Shown: piece after piece, positions 3,392 through 63,860 of the stretch
Numbering within the stretch: the first letter of the stretch is position 1
How the letters are laid out: each line of letters begins with the position of its first letter
DNA from: Amanita rubescens
Taxonomy: Eukaryota > Basidiomycota > Agaricomycetes > Agaricales > Amanitaceae
Length of the DNA stretch: 64,000 nucleotides
Direction of reading: 5' to 3'
NCBI GenBank assembly: GCA_015039365.1
Contig: WION01000165.1
Location: 51,066 to 115,065 of the forward strand
Made by a program: the position numbers and the translations under genes
Notes under the pieces: model-generated
Told to the model about the DNA's origin: nothing
The model's input: only the letters and a program-made list of their open reading frames with translations
Database searches by the model: none

Positions 3392-6300
3392 ATGCAATCT
3401 CCCTCAGGCAGGCCTGAGCCGCACCGCAGCGACCCGCTGCATATCCGCGATGCAAATTTTGTGCCTACTCCAGATCTAAATGCTAAGGAATGCCCAAGGT
3501 AATGTACATTGAGCGATCAATGAAATTTATCCCAAAATTCATGTACTGTAGGTTCCGTATCCTTATCGTTGGTCGAGTAAGGCTTGTTGGCGTTTTCACT
3601 ACCTGCTCCATTTACGGACTTTCTTCAACAGACTGGCACAGGGAGATCGTCACTTATTCATGCCACGTTCAAAACTCCTCTGGCGGTATGCGCTGTTTTA
3701 TGGTTGTTTTTCAGCCATTCATCGACATTTAGAATGCTGGTGTCGCAAATGTCAACGAAGAGATCAAGTCGGCAAACAACAAATACCTAATCCTTCATGA
3801 TTCTCAGGGTTACGAGCCGGGGAACGTCGAGAAATTCCAAATCTTAGAGGAATTTATCACAGAGAGGTGTCAAAAGAAGGATATTGCGAAGAAGCTTCAT
3901 GCTATCTGGTGTGTTCGCCGACCAAAGAGAAAAACCAACTGATATTACCTCGCAGGTTGTGTATTGATGCGTCTTATGCTGGTGGTCAGATATTTGAAAA
4001 GGGCGACGAAAGAATTTTCGAGCTGAATCGAAACGAAGGTAACTACCAATTGCCATCCTTATTCTAAGCTGATCGTGACATCAGTGCCGATCATCGTCGT
4101 GTTTACAAAGTTTGACCTATTTTTAACGGCATTGCACAAGCGGGGGGAGGCCAAGGATCCGATTAGTCTGGAGTTCGCCGAGAAAATTTTCAAGAAGAAA
4201 CATGGGCCAGTATTCGACAAGTTAACCAAGAACGTTGGAGGAGCAATACCATACGCTCTTGTGTCAAGTACGCTTGTACCCGGTGGCTCTTATTTCTGTA
4301 TTAACATTAGCACGCAGTCCGGATGCCCGAAACTTTGAAACGACTGGTCAAAATCACGATGAAAAGTATACGTGCCAAGACACCGACTTTATTCAGTAGG
4401 ATCGTGCGCATTAGAGGCGCTTTATTCAATAGGTCTATTAAACGAGTTCATGCAAGAAGAGAAAATCAAGATCTAGCAGAACTTGCTTTTGCAAGGGCAC
4501 AACGTGTTGATACGGATGCCAGGATTGCCGCATCAATCGAGTAAGCTCCCATATCCGGAAATGAATAGACTTAACATTTGGGTTCTTATTACAGAGTAGC
4601 GAAAAAGGGTAAGTTGTATCTATAATCTGTTGTCGTCTATGTTGTGTATTCTTACATCAATCCAAGGACATTGGAGAACAATAGTAGCGGGCATACGCCT
4701 TCTCAATGTTAGCCTTCAAGAGTATCTATATACGATACATAAAGGCATTATCAGGTCCTGGACTTCCAATGAGGTGTGTACAATGGTGTATCCTAGATAT
4801 GCTGTTAAATCTATTCTATGACCATAGTTTTTTATTACGGATTCAGCCCATCACCGGATGATGGTTCTCGTGGGCGATCTCAATCGTCAGAATATCAGTG
4901 CGACGTGCGTGGATAGGAAACGTTGACGAATAGCCGAGCTAATAGTAGTCACCACAGGCAGAGTAAGACAGCTATAGCTTTGGTAGGGGCGGCGCTAACG
5001 AAGCTATGGAGGAAAGGCGTTTACCAACAACGGTGAGTAGCGTCATTCATCATACCAGCAGAAGTGATAGATTTCTCAACAGACCTGAGCATATGCGCTG
5101 TCTCATGGGCTACGTAGTGGATCTTACGCTTATCCAGCAAGCCATATTTCCTGCTTCACTTCAGCATCTTATCGAAGAAAAAGACTTAAAAGACCGCGTA
5201 AATGAAATCATATATGAGTTTTGTTGCTCGGGAAAGAAGGATGATATACACACCGAAATTCGGGAATTTGTCGCTACTCAGGACTGGCACTCAGAGATTA
5301 ACGTGGTAAACAAGATCGAGTCGCTGATAAAGGCAAATAAGGTGTGGCATTTGCATCTCGCTGTCATCTTATTGTTAAACGAGTGTCTCCCCTGCAGATT
5401 GACATCCGATTAGACCGAAAGAGGGATCCATTCGCATCATTGCTTATAATCCTGAGATTCGAGGTGCGAGATTCCAAGGCAACACGTTACACGATATCAT
5501 TGTTCATGATTACCAGTTGATTGCGAAGGGTCTGACGATAAATAAAACTATTCTTGACCTTGTTCGCGAACTGTTGAATTTACCAGACTGCGACGCTAGT
5601 ATTGTTTCCAGCGTGAAGAATATTTCAGACGTCGAGCTGTTACTTGATTTCTTCCTCTTTGTAAGTACACCTTCGTGCTTGACATCATTGCTTACTCTTT
5701 CTAGTTACTACGCAATGATAACTTGTCAAATTCTGGCATTCAAAATGCCAAGCGAAAAACAAGAAGTCTGATGTTCAAGCTGTTGTGCAAGGCAGATGTC
5801 GGGCCAAGAACTTTGATGATTACTGGTATTAGTTATACGGGTCCTAGTACTGGCACCGGAGACCCTAAACAAGTTTTCGAGGGCAAACACCAAGGACAGC
5901 AGATCACGCTGACGGCGCTGCGTAAAACTCGCCTTGAAGATGTAAGTGTATTTTCAGATTCGCTCCTCAAGACGTTGATTTGTCTGGTCAGGATATATTC
6001 GGAAAAAGATTCCATAAGCAGGCTCTAGAATGGAAATCGCTTGAGCATAGTTTTGTCCTCCCCCTGCTGGGAATATTTGAGCAGGATCCTTCACGCCTAT
6101 TTTTTGTGTCGCCGTCGATGATAAACGGAACATTAACTCAATGGAGGAAAATGAAAAACCCTTGTGTAGCCGTGGTGCAGACGCGGGTAATGCATCAACA
6201 TACTTATCAACATAACATTGCTGACATTCGCTAGATACTGGAGGTAGCCAAAGGGATTCAGTACATCCACGCGGAAGGGATTGTTCATGGTGACTTGCGC

Positions 6301-9300
6301 GGGGTAAGTATTAATAAAACATTTCATCACTTAACTCTTATCTTCATAAACCAGGAAAATGTCCTGCTCGACTCTGACTTCCACTGTCGAATCGCCAACT
6401 TTGGATTAGCGCAAGCTTCCGACTCCAACTTTCCACCACAATCAACCACGACACTTGATTCAAGCGATCCGAGCCCCGAACAATCTGACATAGTCGATGA
6501 AAGACCAAGAGATGTGCATGCGTTCGGTTGCCTTTACTATGAAGTAAGTGCCCTGAAATCTGCAGCGCACTTGACAGTGACTGTTCTAGGTATTTTTCGA
6601 TGTTATGCCTTCCCAAGTGCAAAACGGATCCCAAAGTGGACGACTTGGCACAGGCGAGGAACATCTTGACCAGTCGGACACTCGGACAATGGACGACAAA
6701 ATTTTGGAACTTATCAATAATTGTCGGATGAGCAATCCTTCAGAGCGACCGACAATGGAGCACGTTGTGACGATGCATATGAGATTCACTCCTCTCCCGG
6801 CCTTGCTTGCGACGCTCTGTGAAGTATGTGTTCCGGGGTCACTCCAACTTGATGCCGCTAATAACTGCTAGTTAACGATGCTCGGGCGCTCGATCGTCAA
6901 TGAGACTACCCTCCGTCTTATTGACGAAATTTTGAATCTAGCTGAACTAAATACTAAGGTTACCGAACTAAAAATTGAGTCAGACGTAGGGTTGTTGCTT
7001 GATTTTGTTCTCCGCGTCTGTATAATCTCTGTCCAGCGCACTTGCTCTATTGATCATTTATTCCATCTAGCTAATCCGCAATGGTAACCTGACAAACTTG
7101 GGCATCCAGGATGCAAATCGGATAGCCAGAAAGCTGCTGTTCAAGCTAGCATCTATGAAAAATACCATACCAAAGTCTCTGTTTATTACGGACGTCAAAA
7201 TGCATCATGAAACTATTGGTTCCGGCGGCTTTGGTCGTGTTTTCAGAGGCGAATACGAAGGATTGCAAGCAGCACTGAAAGTGGTGGACAGAGGTCGTTA
7301 CGACGTGGGTGCATTGCTATTTCTCTCCGTACAATAGATCTTGATTCCTTTTGATAAGGATTCGCTCAAAAAAGACATCTGTCGGGAAGCCATAGCATGG
7401 CGATCGCTTACACACCGTTTTATACTCCCTCTTTGGGGAATATTCGAAGAGAAATCGCAGTTGTACCTCGTATCACCACTCATGACAAATGGGACTTTGA
7501 ATCATTGGCAACAGAAGCAGAAGAGAGATGTAACTGAGATACGCAGGCTGGTAATACTCCTGTCATTATCAAAGCGGTAGAACAAATTTGCTGATGTTGG
7601 TTAGATGCTAGAGGTAGCTGAGGGCGTTCGGCATCTCCATTCGGAAGGAATTGTCCATGGTGATCTGCATGGAGTGAGTACCTTGCTACTGTGCACCCTC
7701 GTCGATTCATCCCGTTATCCATCAGCGGAATATTCTCCTCGATCCACAATTCCACTGCAAAATCACTGATTTTGGATCAACCCAACATCACGAGGTCACC
7801 GTTACACGTTCCACTGCAGCTCTTTCTATAGATTTCTCAGCGCCTGAACTATTTGGCGCATGCACTTTGTGTGGCATGTCTGATAACAAGGACTGTCATG
7901 GCAATCAAGATGAAAAGACGATACGCAAAACTAAGGAAACTGACGTTTACGCATTTGGTTGCCTTTATTATGCCGTCAGTTTCTGATTTATTTCTTCTTA
8001 CCTTATTTAGCACATTGAACAATGATCTGCAGACATTCTTTGATGCTCATTTGTTTCCTGGGAAAAGTGAATATCAAATTATGCGACTCGTTATAGAAGG
8101 AGGACGCCCTAAACGATTGGAAAAGCCAAAAATGGCAGACAACACATGGGAACTCATCCAAAGTTGTTGGCGACCTATTCCTTCTAAGCGTCCGAAGATG
8201 GAAGAAATAGTGACGGCATTGACTTTGTTTGCCGAGCTCACCACGAAGCAAAGAGTGCGTCAACTATATACACCAAGAATTGATTTATAACTAGTATTAG
8301 ACCTCAGCGGGGCTCGTAATCGTGCCAGAAGAGAAACGCCAGCGTATGTCGAAGGATCTATATGATTTGTTGCCTAGTCGTCTCCCGCCCAAATACCAGC
8401 TAGATGGGAAAGTCCAGTGGCCGGGCGAAGTGCCTACGAGGGGCGGGAAGAATGTCGACTCGAATATGTACAAGGGAAGACTCCAGGGCCAAGATGTGAA
8501 AATTAAGATCATCTCCTTGGTCAATCCGAATGATGAGAACGGAGTAATAGTACGTTCCTTGGCACTTTGGACCCGAAACTCTACAGTAACATGCATACCT
8601 TCAGAGGATTAAACGTGAAGTTGAGCTGTTAGCAAAGATAAATGAAATGGATCAGGGAAAGCATATTATACCATTTTGTGGTTATTACTCCCCCGACGGC
8701 CTTCGTCTGTAAGTGTGCTCAGCAACATCATCCATTGTGCTTCTTGCCGATGTCATATCAGTGCCCTGGTTTTGCCATGGATGGAAAACGGAGATGCGTT
8801 GGCGTATGTCAAGAAGCACAAGTATATTGACTATAAAAGCCTGGTTTGTTTCCTTTTTATTTTCGTGGTTGTCAATCGATTGTGTGGTCGTAGATCGTTG
8901 GAATTGCTCAAGGAATGAAAGTCCTCCACTCTATGGATCCACCTATAATACATGGAAATTTCAGAGCAGTTCGTGTCTTATTGCTCAAGGACCCGAAGGA
9001 GAGCGCTAATCCTATCGTAAGGAAAAGGTATTTATCGGAGATGAGGGTCAACCACTAATCTCGGACTTTGCGCTTGCCAAGGTACGTAACGTCAAGCTAC
9101 GCTCGTTTTTATCTAAACCTCTTCATCATAGTTTGATGGGAACTTGATTACCCAAGTCATTCACGTGTCGGACAACTGTCGATGGAGTGCACCAGAGATG
9201 TTCGAAGAACAAGCTACTGTGTCGGCCAAGTGCGATATCTATAGCTTTGGTATGACTATTCTGCAGGTTGGCTCGACTCCTTTGGACCCGAGACAAGGAT

Positions 9301-9523
9301 ACTGAATTTAGCCCAGTTGTTTACGCATGAGAAACCATACGCCAACAAGAAAACTGCTCAGGTCTTTTCCGAGAAGCAGACGGGTGAGCTTCCCGACCGT
9401 CCGCAAGACGAGCGTGTCGTCAGCCGCGGATTGGATGACAGAATATGGAAGCTTCTCTGCCAATGCTGGTCCAAGAATCCAACAGACAGACCTTCGATCG
9501 AGGAGCTTTTAGCAGAGTTTTGA
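3392..9523 (+). CDS. GK1: GTPase-pseudokinase-kinase-pseudokinase fusion
   Basis: Start ATG 3392; first exons 3392-3498, 3552-3576 and 3632-3685. The G domain reads FRILIVGR joined to TGTGRSSLIHATF (P-loop with Lys changed to Arg), then HDSQGYEPG (G3, 3799-3810), LHAIWLCI and TKFD (G4, 4105-4116). A helical linker follows (RPEHMRCLMGYVVDLTLI at about 5085). TKL module 1 (about 5800-6830) has ITLTA instead of VAxK, HGD at 6286 and NFG instead of DFG at 6397, so it is probably inactive. Module 2 (about 7150-8255) is complete: GSGGFGRVFRG, Lys 7278, HGD 7656, DFG 7768, APELFG. From 8310 an HK-type pseudokinase follows (HGN 8951, DFA 9064). The join at 8256-8296 is a phase-0 intron after TKQR, the position where HK genes also have an intron (MMQR). 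The modules read through in frame at each junction. A split into two genes near 8290 is possible. Confidence 0.7.
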
Positions 9524-11151: not shown

Positions 11152-14100
11152 ATGCCATTAGGCTCTTGTTTCTCTGCTATTTTTGGATGGGGACTTGCTT
11201 CACCCGTCGTGCCAAGCTTAGGACCTGCCGCAGCTCTTCTGGATGTCATCGTAGCCCTGTCCAAGAAGCTACCCCAAAACAGGTCCGTACAATCTCGCGC
11301 AGTGCAAATTTACTCGAGTCCCACATTCTTTACAGGAATGCTGCTCGTCGACTGTCTGATAGGTGTCAGTACCTATACAATACCCTAAAGCAGTATGAAA
11401 AGAAACGCCTTTCCGATCATACGGGTCGATTTCGGGATACAGTGTTCAAGTCAGTCATCGGTTCTCCGATGATGAATTAACTGACCTAAAACGGCGTGTA
11501 GATGTCTTAACCAAGTTAAGGATGCGATGCAGAAATGGTCAGAAAAAAGCTGGTTTCAGATGTTGGTGCACCAAGGCGATTTTGAGGCCGAATTCAATTA
11601 TTGTGATGCTGCGATCGCCGATTGCCTTACTTTCTTCTATGTCAGTGAGCTCTGGCTGTTCGTAACGTAAATTCATCTCTAACAATTTATTAGACTATTT
11701 CACGAATGGCCGCCTCGGCAAGCTTGAAAGAAAACGAAAAATGGACAAGGGATCTGAAAGAGAGTCTGGATGCCGACCATAAGGCTATTGTGGAACAGTT
11801 TGCCGCTATCGATTTCACGCAACGAGTGACGGAGAGCGAACTCTGGCAGCATAAAGATGACATAAGGAAAATCTTGATGATGATGCAAAAGGTGCGTGAA
11901 CTGTACACGTAGGAGGTTGGGTCGCTTGACATACAATCAGGGCCTGGCGGAGCATGATGTCGTGTCGGAAGAGGGACGCAACCGTATGGCCACGAACCTA
12001 TATAACTTACTCCGGTTGTCCAACCTGCTCCCACCGGAATGCCAACTGCACTCTGGAATGGTTGGGTGGTCGGGAGATATTCCCATTGAAGGCAGCAGGA
12101 ACGTTGATACGTACAAGGGTAGGTATCTCCAATGCGAGGACGTGAGGATCAAGGTCATGCGCACTGTCAATATGAAGAACGATAAAACAGTCAAGGTATG
12201 TTGTCATGGTGAAATCCTACCTACTGGTGACTCAAAATGTTTTCAGAGGATACGGCGCGAGGTCGAGGTATGGGGGAGGATATATGCAATTGATAAGGGA
12301 ATGCATATTACACCGTTTTATGGATTCTACAGCCCTGACGGCTTTCGTCTGTGAGTACCTCTGACAACGCCGGTACCGCTAGCACGCTAACGTCCATGCT
12401 AGTGCTTTGGTTAGTCCATGGGTTAATAATGGGAATACCCTAGCATATGTCAAGAAAAACGACAATGTTGTCAATTACAATAAGCTGGCACGTCATTTGC
12501 TGCGTCTAGTTCTCATGCCAAGAGCTTAATTGTGTCGTTCTAGATTATCGGCACTGCAGAGGGGATCAAAGTGCTGCACACGATGAGTCCTCCCATTATT
12601 CACGGGAATTTGAGAGCAGTTCGTGCCGTTGTTTATAGGAGTCAGACAGAACCATTGATGCTTTACAAGGAAAACATACTTATTGGAGATGAGGGTCAAC
12701 CACTGATCACGGACTTTGCTCTCGCCAAGGCATGTCGCGTTGACCTGCCAGCATGAGGATTGCTTATCTCACTTTTTGAAGCTTGAAGGAAATGAGGCGA
12801 CCCGATCTGGTGGCGAGTCAGACAGTTACAGATGGTTTGCACCGGAGATGTTTGAAGAATACGCCAAGATGTCGGCCAAGGGTGATATATACAGTTTTGG
12901 CATGACCATTCTGGAGGTTCACCTCGATGTTCTCTTTTTTTCATGTTAGAATGCTGATACTCCTTTAGCTGCTTACGCACGACGTACCTTATGCGAACAT
13001 TGAAAGAAATTTCCAGGTGCTTTTGAGAAAGGGAGATGGACTACTACCCAATCGTCCGCGAGATGAGCAAGTCATCAAGCGCGGATTGGACGACAGGATG
13101 TGGCACCTTCTCTCCATATGCTGGTCCAGAGACCCAATGGACAGACCTTCGATCGCTCAGTTGGTGGCGGCGCTTTCGGAAGGCTACGCTACTATACATG
13201 GACCCATCGAATCTTTGTTTGTAGCAGAGAGCGAGATGGATAGAAGCAAGTCATTGAATAAGGTTCAAGCTCATACCTTAATGTCAAATCAATTGCTGAT
13301 CGTATATCTCCCGCACTGCGTTAGACGGAGACGAACAATGATGTCCAACTTAATCAAAATAAACTTCTGACGTTTACTTGCGTCCCATTGTTACTTGCAG
13401 CCCTAAGTGAGGTATTTACTTACACACCTGAGGCACTAACCCCCCCCCACTGATAAGGATAATGACTAGTTAAAGGCACTCGGTAAATCTCCAGTTAATG
13501 AGATCACCCTACGCCATGCGCGCGAACTATTGGATCTACCAGATTTTTCTGCTATTCAAGTCCCATCCGAAACGTGGAGTAGCTCAAATGTCAAGCTATT
13601 ACTTGATTTCATCCTTTCTGTACGCTGTTCCATTTGAACCTTTGTCTGTCTTGACCTTTTCCCCCCATTTAGTTGTTTCATGAAGATAGGCTAATAAATT
13701 CCGGCATTCAAGACTCAACTCAAAAGGCCAGGCAACTGATGCTCCAGCTCACATTGACGGACGTCATGCCTGAGTCCTTATTTATTACTGGCGTTAACAT
13801 GGATTCTAAACCGTTCGCTGTCGGAGGCTATGGTCGTATTTTTAGAGGCGATTACAAGGGGAAGCAAGTGGCACTCAAGATGGTCGACAAAGGCCGTAAG
13901 GAGGTTACCTCATTGTCATTATTTTTCTTGCCTAAGCGCTAATTTGTTTGGTAAGGGTTCACTCAGACAAGACTTCTGTCGCGAAGCACTAGTTTGGCGA
14001 TCACTCTTCCACCGTTTTATCCTCCCTCTACTAGGAATATTTGACGATGGATCACAGCTATACCTCGTGTCGCCTTTCATGAGAAACAAAACGTTAAGGC

Positions 14101-14839
14101 AATGGAGAGACAAGCATAGTCCTGCAGTAGCTGATATACATAAGATGGTAAGATTACTGTAACAGTGGTTATCAGAACAGTCAAACGATATCGCTAATGC
14201 TCCTTAGATGCTAGAGGTAGCTAAGGGTGTTCAGTACGTTCATTCTGAAGGGATCGTGCACGGCGACTTACATGGAGTACGTGTTTTGACATCCAATGCT
14301 CCCCATCAGTTCATCTCATTTTCAACCAGGGAAATGTCCTTCTTGACTTCGATCTTAGCTGCAAAATCACTGATTTTGGGTCAAGTCGACACTTTGAAAC
14401 TGTCGCTTCGCGATCCACAAGAGCGCTGACTATAAATTTTGCTGCACCTGAGTTATTTGGTTTGTGCATCAAGTGTGGCCAGTCCCAGTGCAACGGATGC
14501 TATGAAGGTGACGAGAAGGAGCATCGGGGCAAAACAATGGAAACCGACGTTTATGCATTCGGTTGTCTCTATTATGAGGTGCGTTTCAGATTCTTTCTCG
14601 CTTATACAGCATTTTGAGAGACTGGTGACACAGATATTCTTTAATATCGTTCCCTTCATAAGTCCAGCGAGCATCAAATCATACGACTTATCACAAATGG
14701 AGAACGCCCAAGTCAGTTACAAAGCCCGGAAATGGGAGATAAGACATGGAATCTTATTCAGAGCTGCTGGGAGCCCGTTCCTTCTAAACGTCCGAAGATG
14801 AACGAAATAGTAGAGGTGTTGCCAACCCTACCTGCCTAG
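11152..14839 (+). CDS. HK1: MLKL-like helical domain-pseudokinase-TKL kinase, frameshifted
   Basis: ATG 11152 opens MPLGSCFSAIFGWG and a short hydrophobic helix, VPSLGPAAALLDVI, ending QNR at 11282. Exons with NAARRLSDRC, KCLNQVKDAMQKWS and LVHQGDFEAEFN form the N-terminal helical bundle. The pseudokinase has DVRIKV, HGN (12601) and DFA (12712). A phase-0 intron (13262-13322) joins SKSLNK to TETNNDVQLNQNKLL, which continues into the end of a lost TKL module (VPLLLAALSE) and then a full TKL kinase: VGGYGRIFRG, Lys 13877, HGD 14259, DFG 14372, CIKCGQSQCNGC insert. The frame breaks near 14655: after IFFNIVP one nucleotide is missing before HKSSEHQIIRLI, and the restored frame ends at TAG 14839. 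Unless the break is an assembly error, the kinase C-lobe is truncated at 14801. The activation-segment intron uses a GC donor. Confidence 0.65.
12730..12781 (+). other. GC-AG intron in HK1 pseudokinase
   Basis: The intron after FALAK starts GCATGT instead of GT and ends GAAG before CTTGAAGG. In GK1, HK3, HK4, HK5 and HK6 the same intron has a GT donor. Translation requires removal of this segment to join ALAK with LEGNE. Confidence 0.7.
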
Positions 14840-16053: not shown

Positions 16054-19000
16054 ATGGATGCCCCTCAGGCATCCACGTCCTCTCCCTCTGCCATCGAGAG
16101 AACCCTTATACCTACGACAGATGAGATTGCGGAGGAATGTCCAAGGTCACGTCAATCAAGCCACAGATGATATCCAGCTGAATATAAATACAGGTCTCGG
16201 ATCCTTATCGTTGGACGTGTAAGTCTTGTTGCCGTTCCGCCTGCGTGTTTAATTCATGGACCTCTACCCTTTCGTAGTCAGGTGTCGGGAAGTCGTCGCT
16301 TATCAAAGCTATATTCAAGGTTGATCTGGCGGTATACTGGCATCTGTCACGATTACTCTTCAGCAGCTCAATGGCACTTACTAGGATGGCCGACATTTTG
16401 GGGCTGGCTCGGCCAATATTAGCGAAGGAATTACGTCGCCTCACAACAAACACCTCATCATACACGACTCAGAATGTTATGAGCCAGGAGACGAACAAAA
16501 ATTCCGTATTTTGGAGGAATTTATCGCAGAGCGAAGTCTGAAGGAATCTATTGCTGAGAGACTCCATGCAATTTGGTGGGCTCATGATAATGCGAATCAA
16601 TCATTCAATTCATATTATTCGACAGGTTGTGCATTGCTGCGCCTTGCGTTGGTGACCCAATATTCCAAACATGGGATGAGAGGATTTTTAGTTCAAATCA
16701 ACGCAAAGGCAACTCTCCGAGATTCCTATATACACTAGTTTTGGCTGATCATGATAACAGTACCGATAATCGTCGTGTACACAAAATTTGACATTTTCAT
16801 ACAGAACAACTTGCCCGAAGGAAAGGACAGCACAACGGGGTCTAATTGTAGTTTGGAGTCTGCCGAGAGGCGTTTCAATGAGAAATATGACGAACTGTTC
16901 CGGGAATCCACGAGGAACATTGGGGGTGAGATACCATACACTGTCGTGACAAGTAGGTTCGCAATTTAGGTTGCTTCGCCCGCTTTGATGTGTGCATGTA
17001 GGTTCAATGCAGCGAACCTTGCAGCGACTGGTCGAATTGACGATGAAAAACATTGCCGAGTCTCCGAGCATCTCAAGTGGTCTTGCGCTCGGTATGAAGG
17101 ATTACTTTAATGGAAATCCTGATTAATCAGTTGACAGGGCAAGTGGAAGATTCCTTGGATGCAACACAAATTACTTTTGCTACGGCGCAGCGTATTGATA
17201 CGTCAGGTAAGATTGATGCATCAATAAAGTAAGTTTCTATCAGGAAGTGGGATAGGACTGGCGTCTTACTATTTTTATAGAGTCGGGAAAAAGAGTAAAT
17301 TGAGCCCACAGTTTGTTTTCAATCCCCTCACTTCGATTTCCAGAGTATTGGAGAGCGATAGCATCTGGGATACACTTTCTCAATTTTAGCCTTAAAAAGT
17401 GCTTAGATGTGATACACAAAGACCTTGTTTCTATATGGAATATCCGGGACATGGACGAGGTGCGCGCAGAGTGTCTTGAATATGCTATTCATCACGACTT
17501 GATAGTTCCTTCTCGGTGATGCATTCTCTCGCCAGATGCTGGTCCTCGCGGGTGATCTCATTCATCAGGACCAGGGGAATGACAGCGCACTGTAAGTGGA
17601 TATAGCACGTTGGTAGGCATTTACACAATTGACGACTGTTGCAAGGCAAGGCAAGGCAACGATGGCAGCGGCAGCAGGGGGACCAACGAATCTGTGGGCC
17701 AGCGGTATTTTCAAGAGATGGTGAGCATGTACCGGCTCTTTATGACAACACATGTTAACATCTGAACAGGCCCGAACACGTCCGTTGTATGATGGGCTAT
17801 GTAGTGGACCTCACGCTTATCCTACAAGCCGTATTCCTAGTTTCTCTTCAAGATTATTCCAAAGGCAAAGTTACACCGGATCTCATAAACGAAGTCATCT
17901 ACGAGTTTCATTTGTCGGACAAGAAAAAACGCATTCATGACGCAATCCGGGATTTTCCGAAGCCCTCGCTTTCCAAGGGTGATGTAGTGGATAAAATCGA
18001 GTCATTAATAAAGGAAAACGAGGTGTGAAGTTTCTATTTTCGCCTGAGCTCGTGACTAATCGTGTCTTCGACAATAAAACCTTACAGATGACACAGAATG
18101 ACACAAAATTTGACCAAAATAGATCTACACTTCCATCATTGCTTAGAATACTCAAGTTCGAGGTGGGGACTGCTGAAGTATCGCCGCGCCGTCACTGACG
18201 ACTACTAGCAAAGCGCTAACGGCCTGATAGTAAATCAGATGATTCTTGATCTTACGTGCAAACTGTTCAATTCACCGGACTACGACACGATTGTCGCTGA
18301 AATGAGGGACCCTTTTGATGGCGAATTATTGATTGATTTCAACCTCCTTGTACGTATCACCTTTATCCCTTGTTTTACCTCCTTACCTATTCCATAGTTA
18401 CTCCAAACCAACAGCCTATTGGATTCTGGCAATGAAGACGGCAACCGTAAAGCCAGGACGTTGATGCTCAATCTGCTAAAGAAGGCAAATGTTATACCGA
18501 AATCTCTTTTTATCGTGGACATCAAGATTGATATAGAACAAGGCATGATCAATATCGGAGGTTTTGGGCGTGGCAAATACAAAGGAGAGTTAGTCGCGCT
18601 AAAGTTGCTGGGAAAAGGCCTTAAAGACGTTAGTATCGCGCTTTTCCCTCCTCACCATACTGATTCATTTGTAAGGGCAAGTTCAGTCAAGAGCTCGTTC
18701 TGGAAGTCCTAGCGCGGCGATCGCTCTCACACCCTTTTGTTCTCCCCTTACTCGGAATATTCATAGATAGGTCCCGGCCATATTTTGTGTCGCCACACAT
18801 GAAAATTTCGTTAACTGAATGGCGAAAGACACATACACCAACCGTGCCTGAGATAAATAGGCTGGTGAGACTTCAGCGCTTGCCACGAGAGTTGAATGGT
18901 TCTATCATTGATCAGGTACAGGAGGTGGCCGCGGGCGTTCGGTACATTCACGAAGAAGGAATTGTGCATGGAGATTTGCGCGGAGTGCGTATTTTAATAT

Positions 19001-37133: not shown

Positions 37134-37189
37134 ACTTTGCTTTGTGATCCCTGGACAAGAAAGACATTATCAATACCATCAAACTGTAT

Positions 37190-43271: not shown

Positions 43272-43387
43272 GATCAATGGTCTATTCCCTTATTCCGCAG
43301 CCGTACTCTTTGAGTTATATAGTATTGCACTCCATTTATTATGACGATCGTATAGTGAGAGCTTTGTATGTACTTGTGTAGTCGATG

Positions 43388-48975: not shown

Positions 48976-49124
48976 CACAATTTACTCAAATACCATCCAT
49001 TCCCAACATCCACTTCAACATCCACAGTGCACCTTGCCTCCACTGCACCTCCCAGGCTTCCTATGGGCCCCTAGCCTGCCTCCACTAATCTTCTTCATGC
49101 ACATATCTTAGTGAGAGGATGGGT

Positions 49125-49610: not shown

Positions 49611-49827
49611 AGAGGAATAATAACTCAGCAAATCCACTGACTTGTCCAAAAACCTCATTCACAACTCACCACAATCCACCATGCCACTACTATCATACAT
49701 ATATGTGCAAATAACTCTGTAAACACCAATTACACATTTTCTATGTAGCATACAATAGGGCAAAAGAATTTATGTAGATAGTAGTAGACTTACTAGAATC
49801 TACATAGGATACTGTAGAACTTTTAAA

Positions 49828-49960
49828 TCTACATAAATTCATTAAAATCTACATAAATTCATAAAAACTATAGCAGCCACATAGTTTTACAGAAACTACC
49901 ACAGCCTACCAGAGCTACATAATTCACCACAGCCTACCAAAGCTACATAATTCATGCACT
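49828..49960. repeat. Two short tandem repeat pairs
   Basis: AATCTACATAAATTCAT occurs twice back to back, followed by two copies of a 27-bp unit containing CACAGCCTACCA(G/A)AGCTACAT. Confidence 0.65.
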
Positions 49961-50518
49961 AACTACAGTAGAAAATGTGTTTCCTGATGTGGGTACGTTA
50001 CAATGCGTATCGTCCAATCACAATGCTCCCTAAAATCTTCAACACTCCCTATCAAGCTTGAAGCGAACCCACGCCTACATGAGTCGAAGGAGACGAAATT
50101 CAAATGTGATATTAGCCAACACGTGGATGCGCCCCTCTTATGCAACGCGCAAGTCTCTTAAGAAATCCAAAACCAAACACAGTTATTCCAAGAACCTCGT
50201 TCAACCACTAGTTGGCATAAAAGCGCGATAACGCCTTCGCGCGCTGCAGAAAACACCGACTCCAGCGGACGACGACATTAATGTACGTATGCGTACACAC
50301 TCCTCACATTGCTTATGCAACTTTTACAGGACAATAACGATGGATCTCGATTCTCTAACGAGCGCACTGCTGTCAATGCAGTTTATGCTTTACTCTACAC
50401 GTCAGAGTTCGAGCATAGAATAGAATCTACAATCCTGGTTCAAATTCCGTATAGGTTGAATTCGTTGTCATCTTATCGAATGGTTTGTCGTGGCACAGCC
50501 ATCTTGTGTTAGGACTCA

Positions 50519-51854: not shown

Positions 51855-53916
51855 ATGGTTTTCTTTCAAAGTTTCTTCTCTACTATTGCCAAGACGGGAG
51901 CCCAGGTTGCTGCTGCTGCCGGGCCAATTCCGGGCCTAGGGGCCCTCGGAGAAATCGTCACTGCCATCATCATGCTATGCGACGGCGTCCCCCAAAACAG
52001 GTACGATCCATCCCTAGGCCCACGTTTCAACTTACCCTCTAACCACTTCTAACTCGTTCACAGGCATGCTGCTCGTCACCTGGCCAAAAGATGCGAGCGA
52101 CTGCGTGCTGCTCTAAAGCAGTACGAGAAGAAACCTCTCCCTGATCGTACAATCCAATACTGGAACAACATGCTTGAGTCAGTTGACCGTCCCTCATTCG
52201 TGAATCTCACTGACTGCTTGCAGGGGTCTTAAGCAAGTCAGAGACAAAATGCAGAAATGGTCAGGGAAAAGCTGGGCATATATGTTAGTGCACCAAGGCG
52301 ACTTTGAGGTGGAGATCGACGATTGCAACATGATGATAAACGACTATCTCGTTACCTTCGTTGTGAGCATCCTATATCTGATAGGGAGGCGTCCCTGACA
52401 ATCGTTCAGGCTGCTTCCCATATGGAAGCGCAAGTATACCAGAAAGAAGACGAAAAGTGGAAAAGAAACCTCAAAGAGAGTCTCGACGCCGACCATCAAG
52501 AAGTTATGAAGGAGCTAGCCGCTTCCAATTTCCCAAAACGCATAACGGAGTGTAACATTACGGAGAATGATCGAAAGACAATCTCAAGGATGATGCAAAG
52601 AGTGCGTCAACTATCATACACGCGTTTTGAGTTTAGCTTAACGTTCTCCCATTAGGGTTTAGCGATTGTATCAGAAGACGAACGCAAGCACATGGCGGAG
52701 AATTTATATGAATTGCTTTGGTCGTCTGGTCGGATTCCACCCGAGTGCCTGCTGAACTCTGGAGAGGTCGAATGGTTGGGTGATATACCTGCAGAGGGCA
52801 GCAAGAACGTCGATATTTACAAAGGAAGGTATCTTCACAGCCAAGACGTTAGGATTAAGGTAATCCGCTCCGTCAACATGAAGGACGAGAAGTGCGTGGA
52901 GGTATGTCACCCTGTCACCGAAACATAGCCCGTGACTTACATGCCCTCAGAGAATCAGGCGCGAAGTCGAACTGTGGGTGAAGATATATGAATATGATCG
53001 GGGAAGTCATATTACACCCTTCTATGGTTTCTATTCTCCCGATGGATTTCGTCTGTGGGTACTGTTGACGACACCACCCTCTGTCCATTGAGTTGATGTC
53101 ATTCCAGCGCTTTGGTCAGTCCATGGATAGACAATGGAAATGCGCTGGCATATGTCAAGACTCACGACAAGCTTGTCAATTATAAGAACTTGGTACGTTG
53201 CTTTGTTTGATTGTCGCACAAAGCTTTGACTGTCATTATAGATCCTTGGCATTGGGGAAGGGATCAAAGTCCTCCACTCTATGGATCCCTCCATTATCCA
53301 CGGAAATCTGAGAGCAGTTCGTGTCTGTTATTCATAATAAACGAGAGTACCAACGTCTTTTCAAGGAAAAGATACTCATAGGAAGTGAAGGCCAACCACT
53401 GATCACAGACTTTGCGCTTGCCAAGGTACGTCACATCAACACGTATCATATCTGTTTTGAATCCCACTTTTGTAGCTCGAGGGGAATATGATCACCCAAA
53501 CCACTGGCGAGTCGAACAGTTGCAGATGGCGCGCCCCTGAGGTATTCGAAGAAAAGGCCGCGGTATCGGCTAAAGGCGATATCTATAGCTTCGGTATGAC
53601 TATTCTCGAGGTGGGTGCGACTACTTTGCGTTTAATATCGTAACGTTGACTTTTTGCTTAGTTGTTTACACACGAAATGCCATATGCCGAGATCAAGAAA
53701 TACCTCCAGGTGGTTTATAAGAAGAAGGACGAAGACGGGGTGCCCCTCCGCCCGCTAGACCCGCGCGCCATGGAGCGTGGCTTGGACGACAGAATGTGGA
53801 ATATTCTCCGCTTGTGTTGGTCCTTCGATCCAGGGGATAGGCCTTCAATCGATGGGCTAGTCGCGCTACTTTCACGACCTAATGCCATCTTACAAGACAA
53901 ATCGGACAACATTTGA
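51855..53916 (+). CDS. HK5: MLKL-like helical domain-pseudokinase
   Basis: ATG 51855 opens MVFFQSFFSTIAKTGAQ and AAGPIPGLGALGEIVTAIIM, ending QNR at a splice site. Next come HAARHLAKRCERL, GLKQVRDKMQKWSGKSW, HQGDFEVEIDDC, then a brace helix (QKEDEKWKRNLKESLDADHQ) to MMQR. After a phase-0 intron the pseudokinase starts GLAIVSEDERKHMAENLYEL and has AEGSKNVDIYKGRYL, DVRIKVIRSV, ITPFYGFYSPDGFRL, HGN (53299), DFA (53408), CRWRAPEVFEEKA and DIYSFGMTILE. It ends about 25 residues after DRPSIDGLVALL at stop 53916. Every exon joins in frame, so this is the cleanest HK copy and a good reference for the architecture. It has no Met-Gly start, but its first helix is strongly hydrophobic. Confidence 0.78.
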
Positions 53917-54314: not shown

Positions 54315-57300
54315 TTACGCAAGCAACTTGGCTTCTACTGCTTTCATTGACGGACGGAGAGAAGGTTTTTGTTTCCAACATTTTTGGATAAGGTTCCAAA
54401 TATCGGCTTCCATGATCGGAGCTCCTGATTGGCTTGGGCGCTGTCCTTTTGTGACGATTGACATGATTGGATACGATTCTTTCCCCTGGAAAGGAACACT
54501 ATCATAAAATACCTGTGCAAATTATCGCTCAAGGCAGTGAATACTTGAAACATTGAAGAACGCACTGCGAAGTAAAGGCAACCAAAAGCATAGACATCTG
54601 TTCGCATTGTTCTGATGCAATTCATGTCGCCTTGACTACATCCGTTACACTCTTGTCTCGTACACGTGGCGCACATGCCAAATAGTTCCGGCGCAGTAAA
54701 GTTCGGATGGGGCGAGAAGTCAACCTTCTTATCCACGGCTATATACCGCGTTAATCCAAAATCGGCGATTTTGCAGTCGAGATCAGGTGAGAGAAGGATT
54801 GTTTCCTAGTAAGTGATGAAATGAGCTTATTTGACGAAATGCTGTATCAAATACGCACTCCGCACAAGTTACCATGCACAATCCCTTGCGAGTGAATATA
54901 GGCAACGCCCTCGGCTACTTCCCGCATCTAGGACATATTAATCATTACAGTTAGTCTTTCCATCCAAGCACAAGACTCCTACCAGCCTATGTATCTCGGT
55001 GACATCAACATCCCGCCCTTGCTTGCTTCTCCATTTCATTAATGTTAATGTTTCATTGGACATGAACGGCGACACGAGAAACAAGTTTGATTCCGCTTCA
55101 AATATTCCCAGTAAAGGAAGAATACGCTCGTGGTGGGCGAGCGATCGCCACCCCAGAGCGTCCCGCCAAAAGGATTTCGTGATTGAAACCTTTCCAAGGA
55201 ATCAGTATTGAAATGCAAACAAAGGAAATCCTCAGGATGAACCTTGCTTATGGCCTGCAGCGTAACCCGCCGTCTGCCCATATAGGTAATGTCACGAACC
55301 TTATCGGTCTTGATATCGGTAATCGAAAGAGACCTAGGCATGCCGTCTGTTTCGGATACCAATTCAAACATCAGTCTCCTCGCCTTCTGTTGGGCATCTG
55401 AAATGCCAGACCGCAACAAGGTTCCGTCCTGGAGTAACTACAGGCAATAAGCAATAGTGTCGGGCAAATACATGAAGATAAACATACACGAAGGATAATT
55501 TCAATCAGTAGCTGGACATATGAATCAAGCTGAGTGCCCGAAGAAGCTTTCAGCACTGGGATCGTCCCGTCGTAGTCTGGTAAGTTTAAGAGTTTGAGCA
55601 GAAGGTCGATTTGTTTCTGATTCGCTATGATGCCATTCGTGATTAGCTAGTAGCAACTTTAGTCACGATGCCGCAATGCTTTGGAGTAACCATACCTCAG
55701 ATACAAGCCGTGCAAGTGGCCGTGATGGATGAAAAGATCTCTCTTGGTTAGGTTGGGTATTGTTCTTCGATTGCGGCACAATCTAGGAGATATACGATTA
55801 GCAACCAATTGACGTTGAGACAAGGCCTTCATACCCCATTCTCCGCTAGCAATCCACCATTACCCTCCGATGGAAGCAAGGAACGAAAGCTCGTGACGAG
55901 TTTGTCAACCTTTATACGATTTGACGGGTTCTTGGACCAGCATTGACAAAGGATGTTCCACATTTTGTCGTCCAAACCACGCTCGATAATACGTTCGTCT
56001 TGTGGTCGGTCAGGCAATCCGCTCTCCCGCTTCTTAGCAACCACCTGCGCAGTTTTCTTGATGTTGGCGTATGGCATTTGGTGCGTAAGCAACTGGTCGA
56101 CATTCAGTTTCCTGATAGCAAAAAAGACAAGAACTGACCTCCAGAATAGTCATACCAAAACTGTAAACATCACTCTTGGTTGATACAGAAGCTTGTTGTT
56201 GGAACATCTCCGGTGCACACCATCTACAACTGTCCGTTGCGGTTAGGTTCCCCTCAAACTAAACGAGCCAGAGTTAGCAATACATACAACAATAGAATGA
56301 AATAGCGTACCTTGGTAAGCCCGTAGTCCGTAATCAGTGGCTGACCCTCATCTCCAATATATATGTTTTTCTTGCAAGAGATCAGTATGCTCTATCGTAA
56401 TGGACGGGAGTCACGAACTGCTCTCAAATTTCCGTGGACAATTGGAGGTTCCATAGAGTGAAGAATCTTGATCCCTTCCGCAATGCCGAGAATCTATAAT
56501 GGCACGTTCAAATTTTTAACATGAGAAACCAGTTAAAGCAACTCACAAGTTTTCCATAATTGATATCTTTGTCACGATTCTTAACGTATGCTAGCGCGTT
56601 GCCGTTATTCATCCATGGGCTAACAAGAGCACTGACATGGCATTAAGATGATGATGAGTATTGGATATTATGAAGGGCGCTCACAGATGAAGGCCATCAG
56701 GGGAGTAGAAACCATGGAATGGTATGATATGCTTTCCCTGATCCTGTTTGTGCAACTTTGCCCACACCTCGAACTCATCTCTAATCCTCTGGAGGTAATT
56801 GAGTCACGGGAGAGGATTCAGTGCCAGCGACATACCTGTATGCTCCCCCCATCCCTCATATCAGCGGAACGGATAACCCTCACTCTCACATCTTCACTGT
56901 GGAGGAACCTTCCTTTGTGCATATCGGCATTCTTGCTTGCCTGGCTTGACCACTCTATCTCTCCAGAGTCCAACTGGGGATTGGGTAGAAGCTGTTTGAA
57001 TACCCGAAGTAACGTATGTAGATTCTTAGCGATATGCTGGCGTTCATCGTCTGATAAGACCTTGTTTTCCGCCAAGCCCTAATTCCAGATGAGCCGAGTA
57101 ATCTGAGCTTCCGCGTGTACGGTTTACGCACTCTTTGCATCACCTTTAGTATCTCTGTTTGGTCATTCTCCAGAAGGTCACGGTCCTTTATCCATTGCAC
57201 AAAATTACGAGCGGCCAACTTTTTCATGACAGTTTGAACGTTGGTCTTTATCTGAAAAATTGTCAGAGAAACGTTACTTTGGGGCAGAGTATACTGACAG

Positions 57301-58141
57301 GAGCAGCGCTGTTATATAGGGTTTTGATAGCGGAAAGGAGATCATCGTCAGCCCGGTGTAACGCATCACTGATGGTCGGGAGCGGAGTCTCATTGGATGG
57401 TATATTCGAGGATGAAGCTGGAGGCTTAATTGCGTTCGAGGGTAAAGTCACATTGCCAGTCGAAAGTGAAGGCTTTTGGGAGACCGAGGGCAATAGCTTT
57501 TTAGGTAAAGTCACATTGCCGGTCGAGGGAGGAACCTTATTGATGGTCGGGAGCAAAGTCTCGTTGACAGTCCAGGGTGATGGTATATTGGCGGTCGCGG
57601 ATGAAGGTTTAATTGCGTTCGAGGGTAAAGTCCCATTGCCCGTCGGAAGTGAAGGCTTTTGGGAGGCCGAGGTCGAAAGCTGTTTGGCAGTCGAGGGTAA
57701 AGTCTCATTGCCGGTCGGGGGAGAAGCCTTCTTGCCGGTCGAAAGTGAAGGCTCTTGTAAGATCGAGGATGAAATATTTTTCACGGTCGAGGGTGAAGCC
57801 TTATTGACGGCAGGAGGTGAAGGCTTTTGGGAGGTTGAAGGTGAAGCCCCATTGCCGGTCGAAGATGAAGGCTTCTGGGGGGTTGAGGGTGAAGGTCCAT
57901 TGCTGGTCGAAGGTGGGGGCTTTTGGGAGGAAAGCTTTTTGGGAGGAAACTGTTTAGCAGTCGAGGTCAAAGTCTCATCGCCGGTTGAGGGTGAAGCCCC
58001 ATTGCCAGTCGAAGGTGATCGCTTTTGGGAGGTGGAGGGTGGAAGCTTTCCGGCGGTCGAGGGTAAAGTCCTTTTTCTAGTCGAGGGTGGATTCTCTTTG
58101 AGAGCCGAGCCTCGAGAAGTGCGCGAGCAAAGGCAACCCAT
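54315..58141 (-). CDS. HK6: myristoylated P/S/T-repeat double pseudokinase
   Basis: ATG 58141 (minus strand) gives MGCLCSRTSRGSALK, a dual acylation-type start. About 240 residues of Pro/Ser/Thr repeat follow (units such as LPSTGNGASPST and SQKPSPST), then ADDDLLSAIKTLYNSAAP spliced to IKTNVQTVMKKLAARNFVQW, the brace end of the HK helical region. Most of the bundle is thus replaced by the repeat. Pseudokinase 1 has DVRVRVIRSA (Lys lost), VHGNLRA, DYGLTK, CRWCAPEMFQQQA. A linker then leads in frame to a TKL-type module with no Gly loop, VTLQA (Lys to Gln), HGN and GETILLS (Asn lost), though DFGLTRY and CATCTRQECNGC remain. The last exon ends RPSMKAVEAKLLA, stop at 54315-54317. Both modules should be dead. 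The start diverges from GK6 over a 470-bp shared promoter. Confidence 0.68.
57395..58105 (-). repeat. In-frame P/S/T-coding tandem repeat
   Basis: Imperfect units of about 27-30 bp, read on the minus strand, encode xxPSTGNxxx and SQKPSxST blocks. Because the unit is a multiple of three, the opposite strand also stays open (57159-58355), which is a by-product of the repeat. Confidence 0.75.
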
Positions 58142-58611: not shown

Positions 58612-61600
58612 ATGCCCTTTTTACTGGGACCACGACGAAACATGAGTTCACCTCCGACCTCACCGGCGCGCAACAGGAACCGTGGATCTCAACGATCAAG
58701 ATCGGGTACAGATACAATGTTTTCGGCGCAAATCGCTTTAGCCGCAGCGCAACATGTTGATATGCAGATCAAGGTTGATGCATCGATAAAGTATGCTCCC
58801 CGGACCCCTATGCAGAATACAACGTTGATCAACATCTTTTAATCACAGAGTTGGAGAAAAGAGTGAGTTGATGCTTAATTTGTTGTCGACACCCCTCTTA
58901 TTGAAATTCGTAGAGTGGAGAGAAATAGCGTCCGACAATCTCACGCTTGAAAATTGCGTTTGTGCGGTACACAACGACATTGTCGCCATCTGGAACATTC
59001 GTGATTTGGACGAGGTACGTATTGGTGTACTATCTCGAATGTGTATTCACCACGTGTTCCGATAGTTTCTTCTCAATGATTCATTCCGCTCGCGGATGAC
59101 TTCCATGGTGGAGGACCTCTATCGCCAATATCAAATCAATAACATGGGAGTAGCAGAGCAAGGTAGCGAAACAGTGGAATTAGGGGCGGGCGAGGCCTGG
59201 ACGAAGGTTATTCATCAAGAATGGTAAGCAGTTTGCTCCAGGCCCTACCGACAGACATGCTAAGCTTCTGAACAGGCCCAAGCACGTTCGTTGCCTTATG
59301 GCATATACGGTGGATCTCGTATTGATTCTACAAGTGCTATTCCAAATTTCACTCAGTGGAGATCAATTTCAAGGGAAAACAACATCGGACCGCGTAACCG
59401 AAGTCATCTATCAGTTTGTTTGCTCGAAAAAGAAGAGGATGATTCACGATTCTATAATCGCATTTGTCGAGAATCAGCTCGAGTGCCAGCAGATGCCCGC
59501 AAGCGATGACATAGAGAATATGATCAAGTCTTTGATAAAGCAAAATGAGGTTGGCAGTCAATTCATTGCAAATTTTACATTTTACTATCTGGTACGGCAG
59601 ATCGACGAGGATGATATGGGATTCGATCTAGCAACATCTCCTCTGTCGTCGTTACTGGAAATCCTCAAAATTGAAGTGCGGACTTGAGCGTCGATATCAA
59701 ACAACTTTCCGCTAACGGTTATGTGCTTCTAGCTATCGACACGGAACGTTGTAAACACAATCACCCTTGATCTTATGAGCAAAATATTGGATTCACCAGA
59801 ACATCTTGCTATTGCTACAGGACTAAAGGCTGATTCAGACGTTGAGCTATTACTTGATTTCATCCTTTGTGTGCGTAATTTTCCCAATCGGCTAGTTGGT
59901 CTCTGTTAACGTCGCATTTACTTTAGCTACTCCGCGACGATGGTATAGGGAACTTTGGCACTCAAGATGCAAGGCAAAAGGCCAGGAAGCTGATGCATAA
60001 ACTATCCAAAAATCGAAAGCACGTCTTACCTAGAACTCTATTTATCAGCGATGTCAAGACAAATCTTGACAAGATCGATGAGGGAGGTTTTGGAACGGTT
60101 TATAAAGGCGAACACAACAGACGGTTGGTCGCGCTGAAAATGCTGTACAAACCTCTTCATGCCCAAGTCAGTCCAATGCGATCTATACCCTTCGGCCATG
60201 CTGATGTGCTGGTGAAGGATTTACTACGAAAAGATTTCTGTCGTGAAGCCCTTGCATGGCGGTCCCTCTCACACCAGTTTGTCCTTCCTCTCCTAGGAAT
60301 ATATGAAGAGAAGTCACGACTTTTTCTCGTATCGCCATTTATGACGAACGGAACTCTGATTCAATGGAGGAAGAATCGGCAACCTGGCGTAACTGATATA
60401 TACAGAGTGGTAAGATTACTATGCTCGTAACAAAAACAAAAATTCCTAAAATCCGTTAGATGCTAGAGATAGCTCAAGGCGTTCATTATATTCACTCGGA
60501 AGGAATTGTGCATGGTGACTTGAGCGGAGTAAGTATCAACGTCATTTTTTTTTCGTGATCATTTCATTCCATCATGCACCAGGCGAACGTTCTCCTCGAT
60601 TCCGAATCACGCTGCAAGATTGCTGATTTTGGATTGTCCCGACATGTTGAGATTACCATTACCCGAACCGTTACTGCGCAGGCGCTTCATTATACTGCCC
60701 CAGAGCTGTTTGGTTTATGCAGTAAATGCTCTCGGTCCGATTGTGTCGGCTGCGGTGAAAATGAGCAAAATACAACGAAAACGATGGAAGCAGACGTGTA
60801 TGCCGTCGGTTGCCTTTATTATGCCGTGAGTTTCCCCTGCTTATTTAGAGGACTTGTTGTTGTTGTTAACCTGTGCAGGTGTTTTTCGGTATCGTACCTT
60901 ATGAAGGGGTTCCACCATTTCAAATTATGTGGCGTGTTGCGACTGGAAGATACCCGATCCGTCAAGACAATCCGAAAATGAGTGATGAAATTTGGGGTCT
61001 TATCATGCATTGTTGGTCCCGAAATCCTTCTGGCCGTCCGACAATGACGGAGATTATCGAGAAGTATTTGGCCCGTACATTACTCACTAATCTTATGAAT
61101 GAGGTATGCATCCCTACGATACCAACTCGGATGGCCACTAATTTACGTTTGTTAGCTAACGCTCAGTGACTCGATGGTTAACGAGAAAACCCTTGATCTC
61201 GTGCGCCAAGCGTCGGATCTATCTGATGATGCTATTGCCTTTGAACTGAAGTCCGTATCCAACCTCGAGTTATTACTTGATTTGTCTTTGGCGTACGTGT
61301 AGTTTCGATCACTTTTTTCATGCTGAAAACCTCTTGGCAGATATTCAAACACCGCAAAAGTACCCCGACAAATTCAGCTATTCAGGATGCAGGCCGAAAG
61401 GCCAGGATCTTGATGTCCAAACTAATATCGGCAATAAATATCGTACCAAGCTCTTTATTTATTACGGATGTTAACATAGTAGATCTTGATGCCGCTTCAA
61501 CGGCAGGGTTCGGATACGGTTTTTACAAAGGACAAGAAGTTGCGGTACAGAGGCTTTACAAAGGCAGCCATAAGGAAGTCTGTTGATTTACATCTTGGCC

Positions 61601-62496
61601 TTCCTATAGCACTGATTCCGTTTAGCCCGGAAAGGATTTACTCCGAAGAGACCCCCGTCGACTCCAAGAAATCCTTGTATGCCGGTCGCTCTCACATCGC
61701 TTTATCCTTCCCCTACTGGGAATACATGAAGAGAAATCATACCTGTTCCTCGTAACACCGTTTATGGCAAATGGGACGTTAACTCAGTGGAGAAGAGACT
61801 CGACGCAGCAGTCACCCGCTCTGGAAGATATGATTCACGATGTGGTAAGATTACGATGCTTGTTGGAATAGTTAAGGGGGATCATTGAAAAAACTGTTAG
61901 ATGCTGGAGGTAGCCTTGGGTGTTCAGTATATGCACTTGGAAGGTGTTGTACATGGCAATTTGCACGGAGTAAGCATTTTGACACATTCTTCTTATCCGA
62001 TTGGCTTATCCGGTTGTCTACCAGGGGAACGTCCTTATCGATTCTGCTCTCCATTGCCAAATCACTGGTTTCGTATCATCTGAGCAATCAGATATTTCTG
62101 TTACACCTTCCTCCTCGACATTGTTGACAAACTATGCGGCACCGGAACTATTTGACGACGTCGAGGGGGACCTCGATGTGCAGAAGAGGATGCAGATAGA
62201 CGTGTACGCGTTTGGTTGCCTGTACTACGCAGTGCGTTTCAATCGTTCCTTAACTCGTTCAGTGCATTGATTGATGACCGGTACAGGCATTCTTTGATAC
62301 AATACCTTTTCATGGGAAAAACAACTTTCAAATTATGCGACTCGTCAAAAGCGGAAGACGTCCAGATCGACTCGAACAGCCGAGAATAGATGATTGGACA
62401 TGGAATCTTATTCAGAGCTGTTGGGAATCGGATCCTTCGAAGCGCCCGACTTTGGAACAAATAGTGGAAACATTAAATCGACGGTCGTGGGCGTAA
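58612..62496 (+). CDS. GK6: GTPase-less gene with kinase then pseudokinase
   Basis: ATG 58612 (or 58642) begins MPFLLGPRRNMSSPPTSPAR and runs into FSAQIALAAAQHVDMQIKVD, which matches the segment after the GTPase domain in GK1 and GK5 (AQRVD). The GTPase exons are absent. The linker follows (RPKHVRCLMAYTVDLVLILQ). Module 1 is complete: DEGGFGTVYKGE, Lys 60137, HGDLSGAN (60511), DFG 60625, CSKCSRSDCVGC insert, DVYAVGCLYYA. Module 2 joins by an intron from LLTNLMNE to LTLSDSMVNE and is degenerate: TAGFGYGFYKGQE, EVAVQ (Gln for Lys, 61548), HGN (61952), GFV for DFG (62067), no Cys insert, ending NRRSWA with stop 62496. The order, active then dead, is the reverse of GK1 and GK3. All exons join in frame. 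Confidence 0.74.
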
Positions 62497-63189: not shown

Positions 63190-63860
63190 GTTGGCATACT
63201 CTAGAGTTTTTCATCCGACATGCCTCCCCGTTTGTTCTGCCGTTGTCAGTCCAACGATGCCACTGATTACTGGCCTGGGTACCGTCGGATGTTTTTTCCC
63301 TGCCTTTACCCTTTGTGATAATGACCCGCAAAACAGGCACGTACCATTCTTTCTTCCGTCAGTACCTTCAATAATATCAACCACCATTCTTCGTTTTGAT
63401 GCCATACTGGTGCATTGGTCAGGATAATGGAGTTGAGCTGCCATATGTCAAGTTTTACGAACAAACAGCTGGTGCGTGAGTCTTTTCAGTTGCAACGCTG
63501 AAGTTCTGATTGTGCTACTCAATAAGATCGTCGGCATTGCTGATGGATCCTCCCTCATCATTTACAAGCAAAGTAGGGAAGACTGGCCGCGCTTGCCAAG
63601 GCATGTTACGTGAATCTCCACTCAAACGTGAATAAGTATCCGACCATAGGGTGCACCTGAGGCATGGAGAGGATGCTATGTCGATCCAAAGCGATATCTA
63701 CAACCTGGGCATGACTGGCATTGAACAGGTCAATTTCAGGATTAACAAGAAGCAAGTTAACTGGCTACCCAACGACGCAGGGGACGAGTGTGCCGTCAAG
63801 CGTGGATTCGATGATAATCGGGATATACTGTACGCTAAGAGTGTCAATACTACTGTAGCC
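63190..63860 (+). pseudogene. Decayed HK-type gene relic
   Basis: The order of HK exons is still visible but broken. 63259-63337 reads PLITGLGTVG...TLCDNDPQNR, like PIPGLGPVS...ELCDKIPQNR. Then the bundle and most of the N-lobe are missing. 63418-63475 recalls NGNALAYVK...KL plus donor, 63527-63545 recalls IVGIADG, CGCGCTTGCCAAG at 63590 recalls ALAK (followed by a GC, as in HK1 and HK2), 63652-63720 recalls CAPE...SDIYSFGMT, and 63775-63820 recalls DERVVERGLDD. Deletions and frameshifts throughout exclude function. Confidence 0.65.

Follow-up and report, generated by a model that had tools for sequence, protein, structure and literature searches.

An array of MLKL-type pseudokinase genes, GTPase-linked kinase genes and their chimeras in Amanita rubescens

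What kind of system is encoded where GTPase, kinase, pseudokinase and helical-bundle parts recur in changing combinations along 60 kb of a mushroom genome, and might it act in signalling or cell death? We analysed the right-hand 64 kb (hereafter the window) of the 115,065-base contig C74 from the 75.7 Mb assembly of Amanita rubescens, for which a first-pass annotation had claimed at least 12 genes and two relics within 60 kb. All-against-all comparison of open frames, a splice-aware gene finder that was trained on the window itself and forced starts recovered 12 genes and two relics, one of the relics being weak. The genes form two families and their fusions, namely four HK genes, five GK genes and three in-frame GK/HK chimeras, arranged in the order GK1, HGK1, GK2, GK3, GK4, HK1, HK2, GK5, HK3, HK4, HGK2 and GK6, with HK3 and HGK2 on the minus strand. 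HK proteins consist of a helical bundle, a brace and an HGN/DFA pseudokinase; GK proteins of an optional GTPase, a helical domain and one or two TKL kinases, with a repeated helical linker ahead of each kinase. Twenty kinase domains were counted in the window, seven HK-type and 13 GK-type; the TKL-like kinases of the earlier claim were borne out.

The gene models are supported by the agreement of HK2 with the annotated A. rubescens protein P0004 (499 of 499 aligned residues identical; 27 extra residues in the model only) and by dN below dS in 17 of the 18 allele comparisons that yielded a ratio. Several models contain zero-length exons and miss others, as happens in the GK2 and GK3 G domains and in a portion of the HK3 bundle. 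Exon ends, and with them the codon ranges behind the dN/dS values, are therefore approximate. The clearer relic, of HK type, lies at 63215–63905 (+; tblastn E 1.8e-6). The weak one, at 37295–37597 (+), matched HK2 by blastn over the 39 bases of 37559–37597 (E 8.8e-6) and at 37295–37316 (E 0.06), and gave no tblastn match at E 0.05. Positions 300–1500 of the window are part of a dispersed repeat of which the assembly has 19 further near-full-length copies (78–98% identity) and two incomplete ones, some of them perhaps each other's alleles; the repeat, probably a transposable element, borders the cluster on its left, and no Pfam match was found at 880–1467. Between HK3 and HK4 lies a gene on the minus strand (47528–48464) with three pieces that are 39–42% alike and by eye rich in Trp and Cys; the two stretches of it that were scanned gave no Pfam match above cut-off.

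The likeness to MLKL resides in the HK genes. HK1 (31885–34109, +) and HK3 (43388–45388, −) begin with MGCFSS and MGGSFSS, respectively, followed by bundle, brace and pseudokinase, a layout also present in HK2 (35090–37133, +) and HK4 (51855–53916, +); the bundle of HK1 is of MLKL type, and the pseudokinases of HK1 and HK2 carry HGN/DFA. Domain-by-domain HMM searches, proposed earlier as a check, placed Pfam MLKL_N above its cut-off of 27 bits in HK1 (31.5) and HK4 (29.0) and below it in HGK1 (24.2), with no match to HK2 or HK3 as single sequences. When a profile of the family was compared with PDB sequences, MLKL (4btf) was the sole significant match (E 8.1e-5 and 3.1e-4); a Marasmius-only profile ranked MLKL third, at a non-significant E of 1.1. 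By sequence, HK1 matched best the kinase chains of EGFR, TNNI3K, RIPK4 and CTR1. The search with a full-length HK structure returned matches filled by kinases, and therefore the bundle was folded by itself. In the structure models of HK2 the N-terminus is predicted to be helical, the property on which the earlier proposal had been staked, and structures of HeLo, SesA and Goodbye were absent among the matches listed for the predicted bundle. PF22215 had no match in the six-frame translation of the whole genome, as expected for a domain interrupted by introns; since it matched none of 14 control genomes either, this negative carries no weight. Judged by MLKL_N and the family profile, the HK N-terminal domain is related to the MLKL four-helix bundle, and its union with a pseudokinase stands as claimed. 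The MGxxxS starts of HK1, HK3 and HGK2, which we take to be a lipid-anchor motif, suggest putative lipid anchoring.

An HGN/DFA pseudokinase had been predicted, and HGN was indeed read in all seven HK-type domains of the window, which accordingly lack the catalytic Asp; the beta-3 Lys is present in six and replaced by Arg in HGK2. Across the HK family alignment this Lys and Thr 391 of the activation loop are nearly invariant. Among the 17 sequences of the Amanita clade (eight from A. rubescens, six from five other named species and three others) the catalytic Asp is missing in 16 and the Gly of DFG likewise in 16, whereas the Marasmius relatives with a kinase in the alignment kept HGD in 11 of 12 and DFG in 12 of 12. 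In a midpoint-rooted tree the Amanita clade (100/100) is nested within Marasmius sequences and HK4 groups with A. brunnescens P0009 (100/99); HK genes occur also in other Amanita species. The motif pattern split P0016, P0032, P0034 and P0038 into doubled rows of this tree, P0016_k1 covering less than half of the columns, and P0004, P0005 and P0010 were left out, HK2 standing in for P0004. Going by these motifs and the tree, the HK kinase is a pseudokinase that lost catalysis within the Amanita clade.

A P-loop GTPase had been counted among the four parts of the locus. This held for the presence of the domain, with Pfam MMR_HSR1 above its cut-off of 21.9 bits in GK1 (23.2 bits, next to three kinase stretches) and in the relative P0033 (39.7 bits, with canonical G motifs), but only four of the six GK-type genes (GK1 included) possess a G domain. 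None of these four has all of the required motifs (P-loop GxxxxGK[ST], DxxG and [NT]KxD) canonical and in open frame, while TKxD is retained in each. In GK1 (3392–9523, +) the P-loop K is changed to R, and the GTPase is followed by helical domain, pseudokinase, kinase and an HK-type pseudokinase; its copy on contig C1 has 93% DNA identity. GK2 (16054–20957, +) reads DSEC for DxxG ahead of a helical domain and two kinases, and GK5 (39826–43271, +) has a degenerate GTPase (SGIAKAS), a helical domain and one kinase. GK3 (21901–26798, +), with GTPase, pseudokinase and kinase, is a decaying copy with its frame broken twice, once within the G domain and once close to the C-terminus. The disrupted stretch of the G domain is identical on C1 and the C-terminal one is not common to it, so the latter disruption may be local or an error. 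The G domain is absent from GK4 (26890–30365, +; helical domain and two kinases, start codon uncertain) and GK6 (58642–62496, +; helical domain, kinase and pseudokinase).

Two or more kinase or pseudokinase domains per chain occur in GK1–GK4, GK6, HGK1 and HGK2. The HxD Asp is retained in 10 of the 13 GK-type kinase domains; seven (the second of GK1, GK2, GK3 and GK4, the first of GK6, and those of HGK1 and GK5) keep Lys, Asp, Asn and DFG together, the second kinase of GK3 with a disrupted tail. Two more, the first kinases of GK2 and GK4, read DVG or DTG in place of DFG. Two Lactarius proteins, P0042 and P0043, are relatives of the N-terminal half of GK without a kinase, aligning with one third of the query at 26–29% identity; MGACCS/MGCCSS starts and low-complexity tails precede the related part, and P0042 stays below the MMR_HSR1 cut-off.

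Three genes had been called chimeras of the two lineages, and in GK1, HGK1 and HGK2 the frames are open across the junctions in the window; as read from the DNA, they are fused reading frames. In GK1 the passage from GK kinase to HK (8225–8330, +) sits at an HK intron whose donor context, CAAAGAGTGCGTCAACTAT, is identical to that of HK4. This junction was also read on contigs C1 and C22, the C1 copy having four extra single bases there. HGK1 (11152–14839, +) joins an MLKL-type bundle and HK pseudokinase through a linker to a GK kinase, its frame crossing an intron with splice sites conserved on the window and C1; it is hypervariable between locus copies. P0005, annotated as a partial protein, is HGK1 in the version found on C22/C1, where 308 of its 467 residues match in one stretch (at least 97%). 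HGK2 (54344–58141, −) lacks the bundle; instead, MGCLCS and a lipidation-like tail of Ser/Pro/Thr repeats precede the rest of the brace, the HK pseudokinase, a linker and a degenerate GK kinase. Its start and domain order equal those of P0017, an annotated protein that terminates before its GK part is complete. The repeats (57293–58141, −) differ from P0017 in length and sequence (65% identity over 282 columns). Outside A. rubescens, P0079 of Marasmius tenuissimus has the HGK1 order, its second kinase sitting on a long branch at the base of the tree's GK side, and HK and GK genes lie close together in A. brunnescens, as seen from locus tags and the lengths of the contigs.

The locus is also far from uniform within this single assembly, so that here, too, the outcome that would have told against the first-pass proposal did not arise. 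Presence/absence polymorphism, proposed earlier as a line of enquiry between strains, was found among the copies, together with structural polymorphism. Pieces of the window aligned to C1:282475–347669 at 78–99.9% identity, with gaps. Most of HK2 (window 35312–37531, from exon 2 onward) is missing on C1, the flanks meeting there. The gene is present in identical form on C74 and C334, at 98% on C129 and at 95% on C6, with nothing above 72% on C1. HGK1 varies among the contigs, with DNA identities of 90% (C6), 87% (C129) and 77% (C1/C22). Its C1 version is 86–95% like the window HGK1 over the first ~780 bases and then, for 1.4 kb, 91–97% like HK1 and 65–82% like the window HGK1. Because of this switch we conclude from the alignments that the window or the C1 version of HGK1 swapped brace and pseudokinase with a paralogue, the direction being possible either way.

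Compared with the models, C1 shows one in-frame stop each in HGK1, GK4 and GK5 and two in HGK2, and C334 one in HGK2. Close to the GK1 junction, a stretch of some 240 bases on C1 has four single-base insertions and no substitutions, which looks like sequencing error and weakens claims based on indels on that contig. A segment of ~1.4 kb with tandem repeats (window 48589–49989) is unaligned on C1, where its flanks meet, and is likely an insertion in the present copy; C1 in turn has extra segments of 2.3 kb at window 27094/27095 and 1.7 kb at about 31824. Window positions 45500–47500 match five contigs at 92–100%, and of the Rpb2-type genes in the assembly three were found twice each and two once. 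The locus copies may be nuclear haplotypes (several nuclear types) or local duplicates. The two single Rpb2-type genes, on C696 and C331, differ from the three pairs in having long open frames; both contigs are possibly bacterial or organellar.

Positive selection had been suggested as a further mark of such a locus. Of 21 allele comparisons, three were near-identical pairs without a ratio, and in 17 of the other 18 dN/dS was 0.03–0.46. Values were 0.03–0.06 in HK4, 0.12–0.25 in HK1, 0.24 in HK3 and 0.17–0.44 in HK2; GK2 and GK6 gave 0.19 and GK5 0.46. For the chimeras we obtained 0.31 (C1) and 0.43 (C22; 4 and 6 changes) in GK1, 0.33 at a dS of 0.385 in HGK1, and 0.38–0.40 in HGK2, whose model here begins in the brace. 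The exception, GK4 against C1 at 1.41, comes from 2 synonymous and 9 nonsynonymous changes. Most genes, chimeras included, are under purifying selection, and gene-wide positive selection was not seen.

Our preferred explanation, to which we give about an even chance taken as a whole, is that HK is a fungal protein of MLKL architecture, with a hydrophobic N-terminal helix, four-helix bundle, helical brace and pseudokinase. The pseudokinase would keep HK silent until phosphorylation or a conformational switch of the activation loop or pseudokinase releases the bundle, which would then bind and permeabilise membranes. GK proteins would be upstream sensors or kinases, acting in trans as separate proteins and in cis within a chimera. 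That GK senses and HK executes was already part of the first-pass annotation; we infer the same, with the four G domains of the window degenerate. Membrane killing, activation of HK by GK and the biological role are proposed by analogy. The locus itself would have been shaped by duplication in tandem, by fusions that fall at introns, and by ectopic exchange as well as deletion, which fits the expectation for an immune or self-recognition cell-death locus. A bolder version, which we consider rather unlikely, sees a separately evolved mushroom killer system analogous to RIPK3–MLKL, in which tandem kinases linked to a GTPase set off pseudokinases of MLKL type, sensor and executioner become fused and swap domains through recombination, and basidiomycetes use the polymorphic array to tell self from non-self or to defend themselves against viruses.

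The strongest competitor, itself doubtful, holds that HK and GK belong to the expanded TKL kinases of mushrooms and signal without lysing cells, working in development, mating or mycorrhiza, with bundle and MGxxxS as membrane tethers and with clustering and chimeras as by-products of unequal crossing-over. Such a role agrees with the expansion of a TK-related kinase lineage in Agaricomycetes reported in PMC3937382, with the name TKL-ccin given to a Marasmius member by its source, with the catalytic Asp retained by nearly all Marasmius relatives, and with HGK2, which has an anchor-like start and no bundle. The N-terminal domain is, however, specifically MLKL-like by profile, and the Amanita clade lost catalysis with most genes still under purifying selection, as in MLKL. 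That the array, with HK as killer, itself sets self against non-self as a somatic (in)compatibility locus seems improbable to us. The presence/absence of HK2, the divergence of HGK1 and its exchange with HK1 speak in favour, as does the description, in PMC8229728, of basidiomycete somatic incompatibility as poorly understood and modelled on ascomycetes; yet dN/dS is nearly always below 1, and the copies may be duplicates rather than alleles. Finally, many members could be non-functional and the architecture the noise of gene death. The frame disruptions of GK3, the relics, the degenerate G domains, the HK2 deletion on C1 and the in-frame stops in some copies would accord with decay, but dN is below dS for most models, chimeras included, and HK genes persist in other Amanita species, which makes this reading very improbable.

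Putative MLKL-type killing by HK can be set beside known systems. Vertebrate MLKL, the necroptosis executioner, is activated by RIPK3 (PMC12881547). HK resembles it in a bundle homologous by profile, a helical brace, and a C-terminal pseudokinase without catalytic Asp whose family keeps the activation-loop Thr nearly invariant. It differs in an extra hydrophobic N-terminal helix, in the HGN/DFA motifs with beta-3 Lys mostly kept, and in forming a multigene family in tandem, with fusions to GTPase-kinase genes; a RIPK3/RHIM counterpart was not identified, and HK killing is putative. Fungal HeLo/HELL effectors (HET-S, HELLP) and the HELL-kinase/pseudokinase proteins already mentioned in a 2025 review (PMC12881547) share an MLKL-related membrane-targeting bundle, whereas HK genes neighbour a GTPase-tandem-kinase family and form chimeras with it. 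Plant MLKL proteins such as wheat Pm13 likewise belong to an immunity setting, Pm13 (PMC10951266) being a single resistance gene. Plant tandem kinases such as the kinase-pseudokinase Yr15 (PMC6170490) combine both kinds of domain in a single chain, as do several GK proteins, which add a G domain and helical linkers. Within the parts of the literature searched, we found no description of a GTPase-kinase/MLKL cluster of this kind. For plant MLKL proteins, we know of no GTPase-kinase array. As far as that search goes, what is new comprises the GTPase-tandem-kinase partners arrayed together with HK, the fusions of the two, the disappearance of catalysis from the Amanita clade, and the mosaic and the deletion that distinguish copies of the locus.

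The comparison of Marasmius with Amanita suggests a shift from active kinase to pseudokinase inside one domain architecture, and the layout of this fast-changing cluster hints at a fungal system for cell death or self-recognition. If our explanation is true, A. rubescens would offer a concrete fungal locus for necroptosis-like killing by an MLKL-type pseudokinase, with candidate upstream kinases adjoining. To our knowledge, the genes of self-recognition in basidiomycetes are largely unknown, and the differences between its copies make this locus a candidate.
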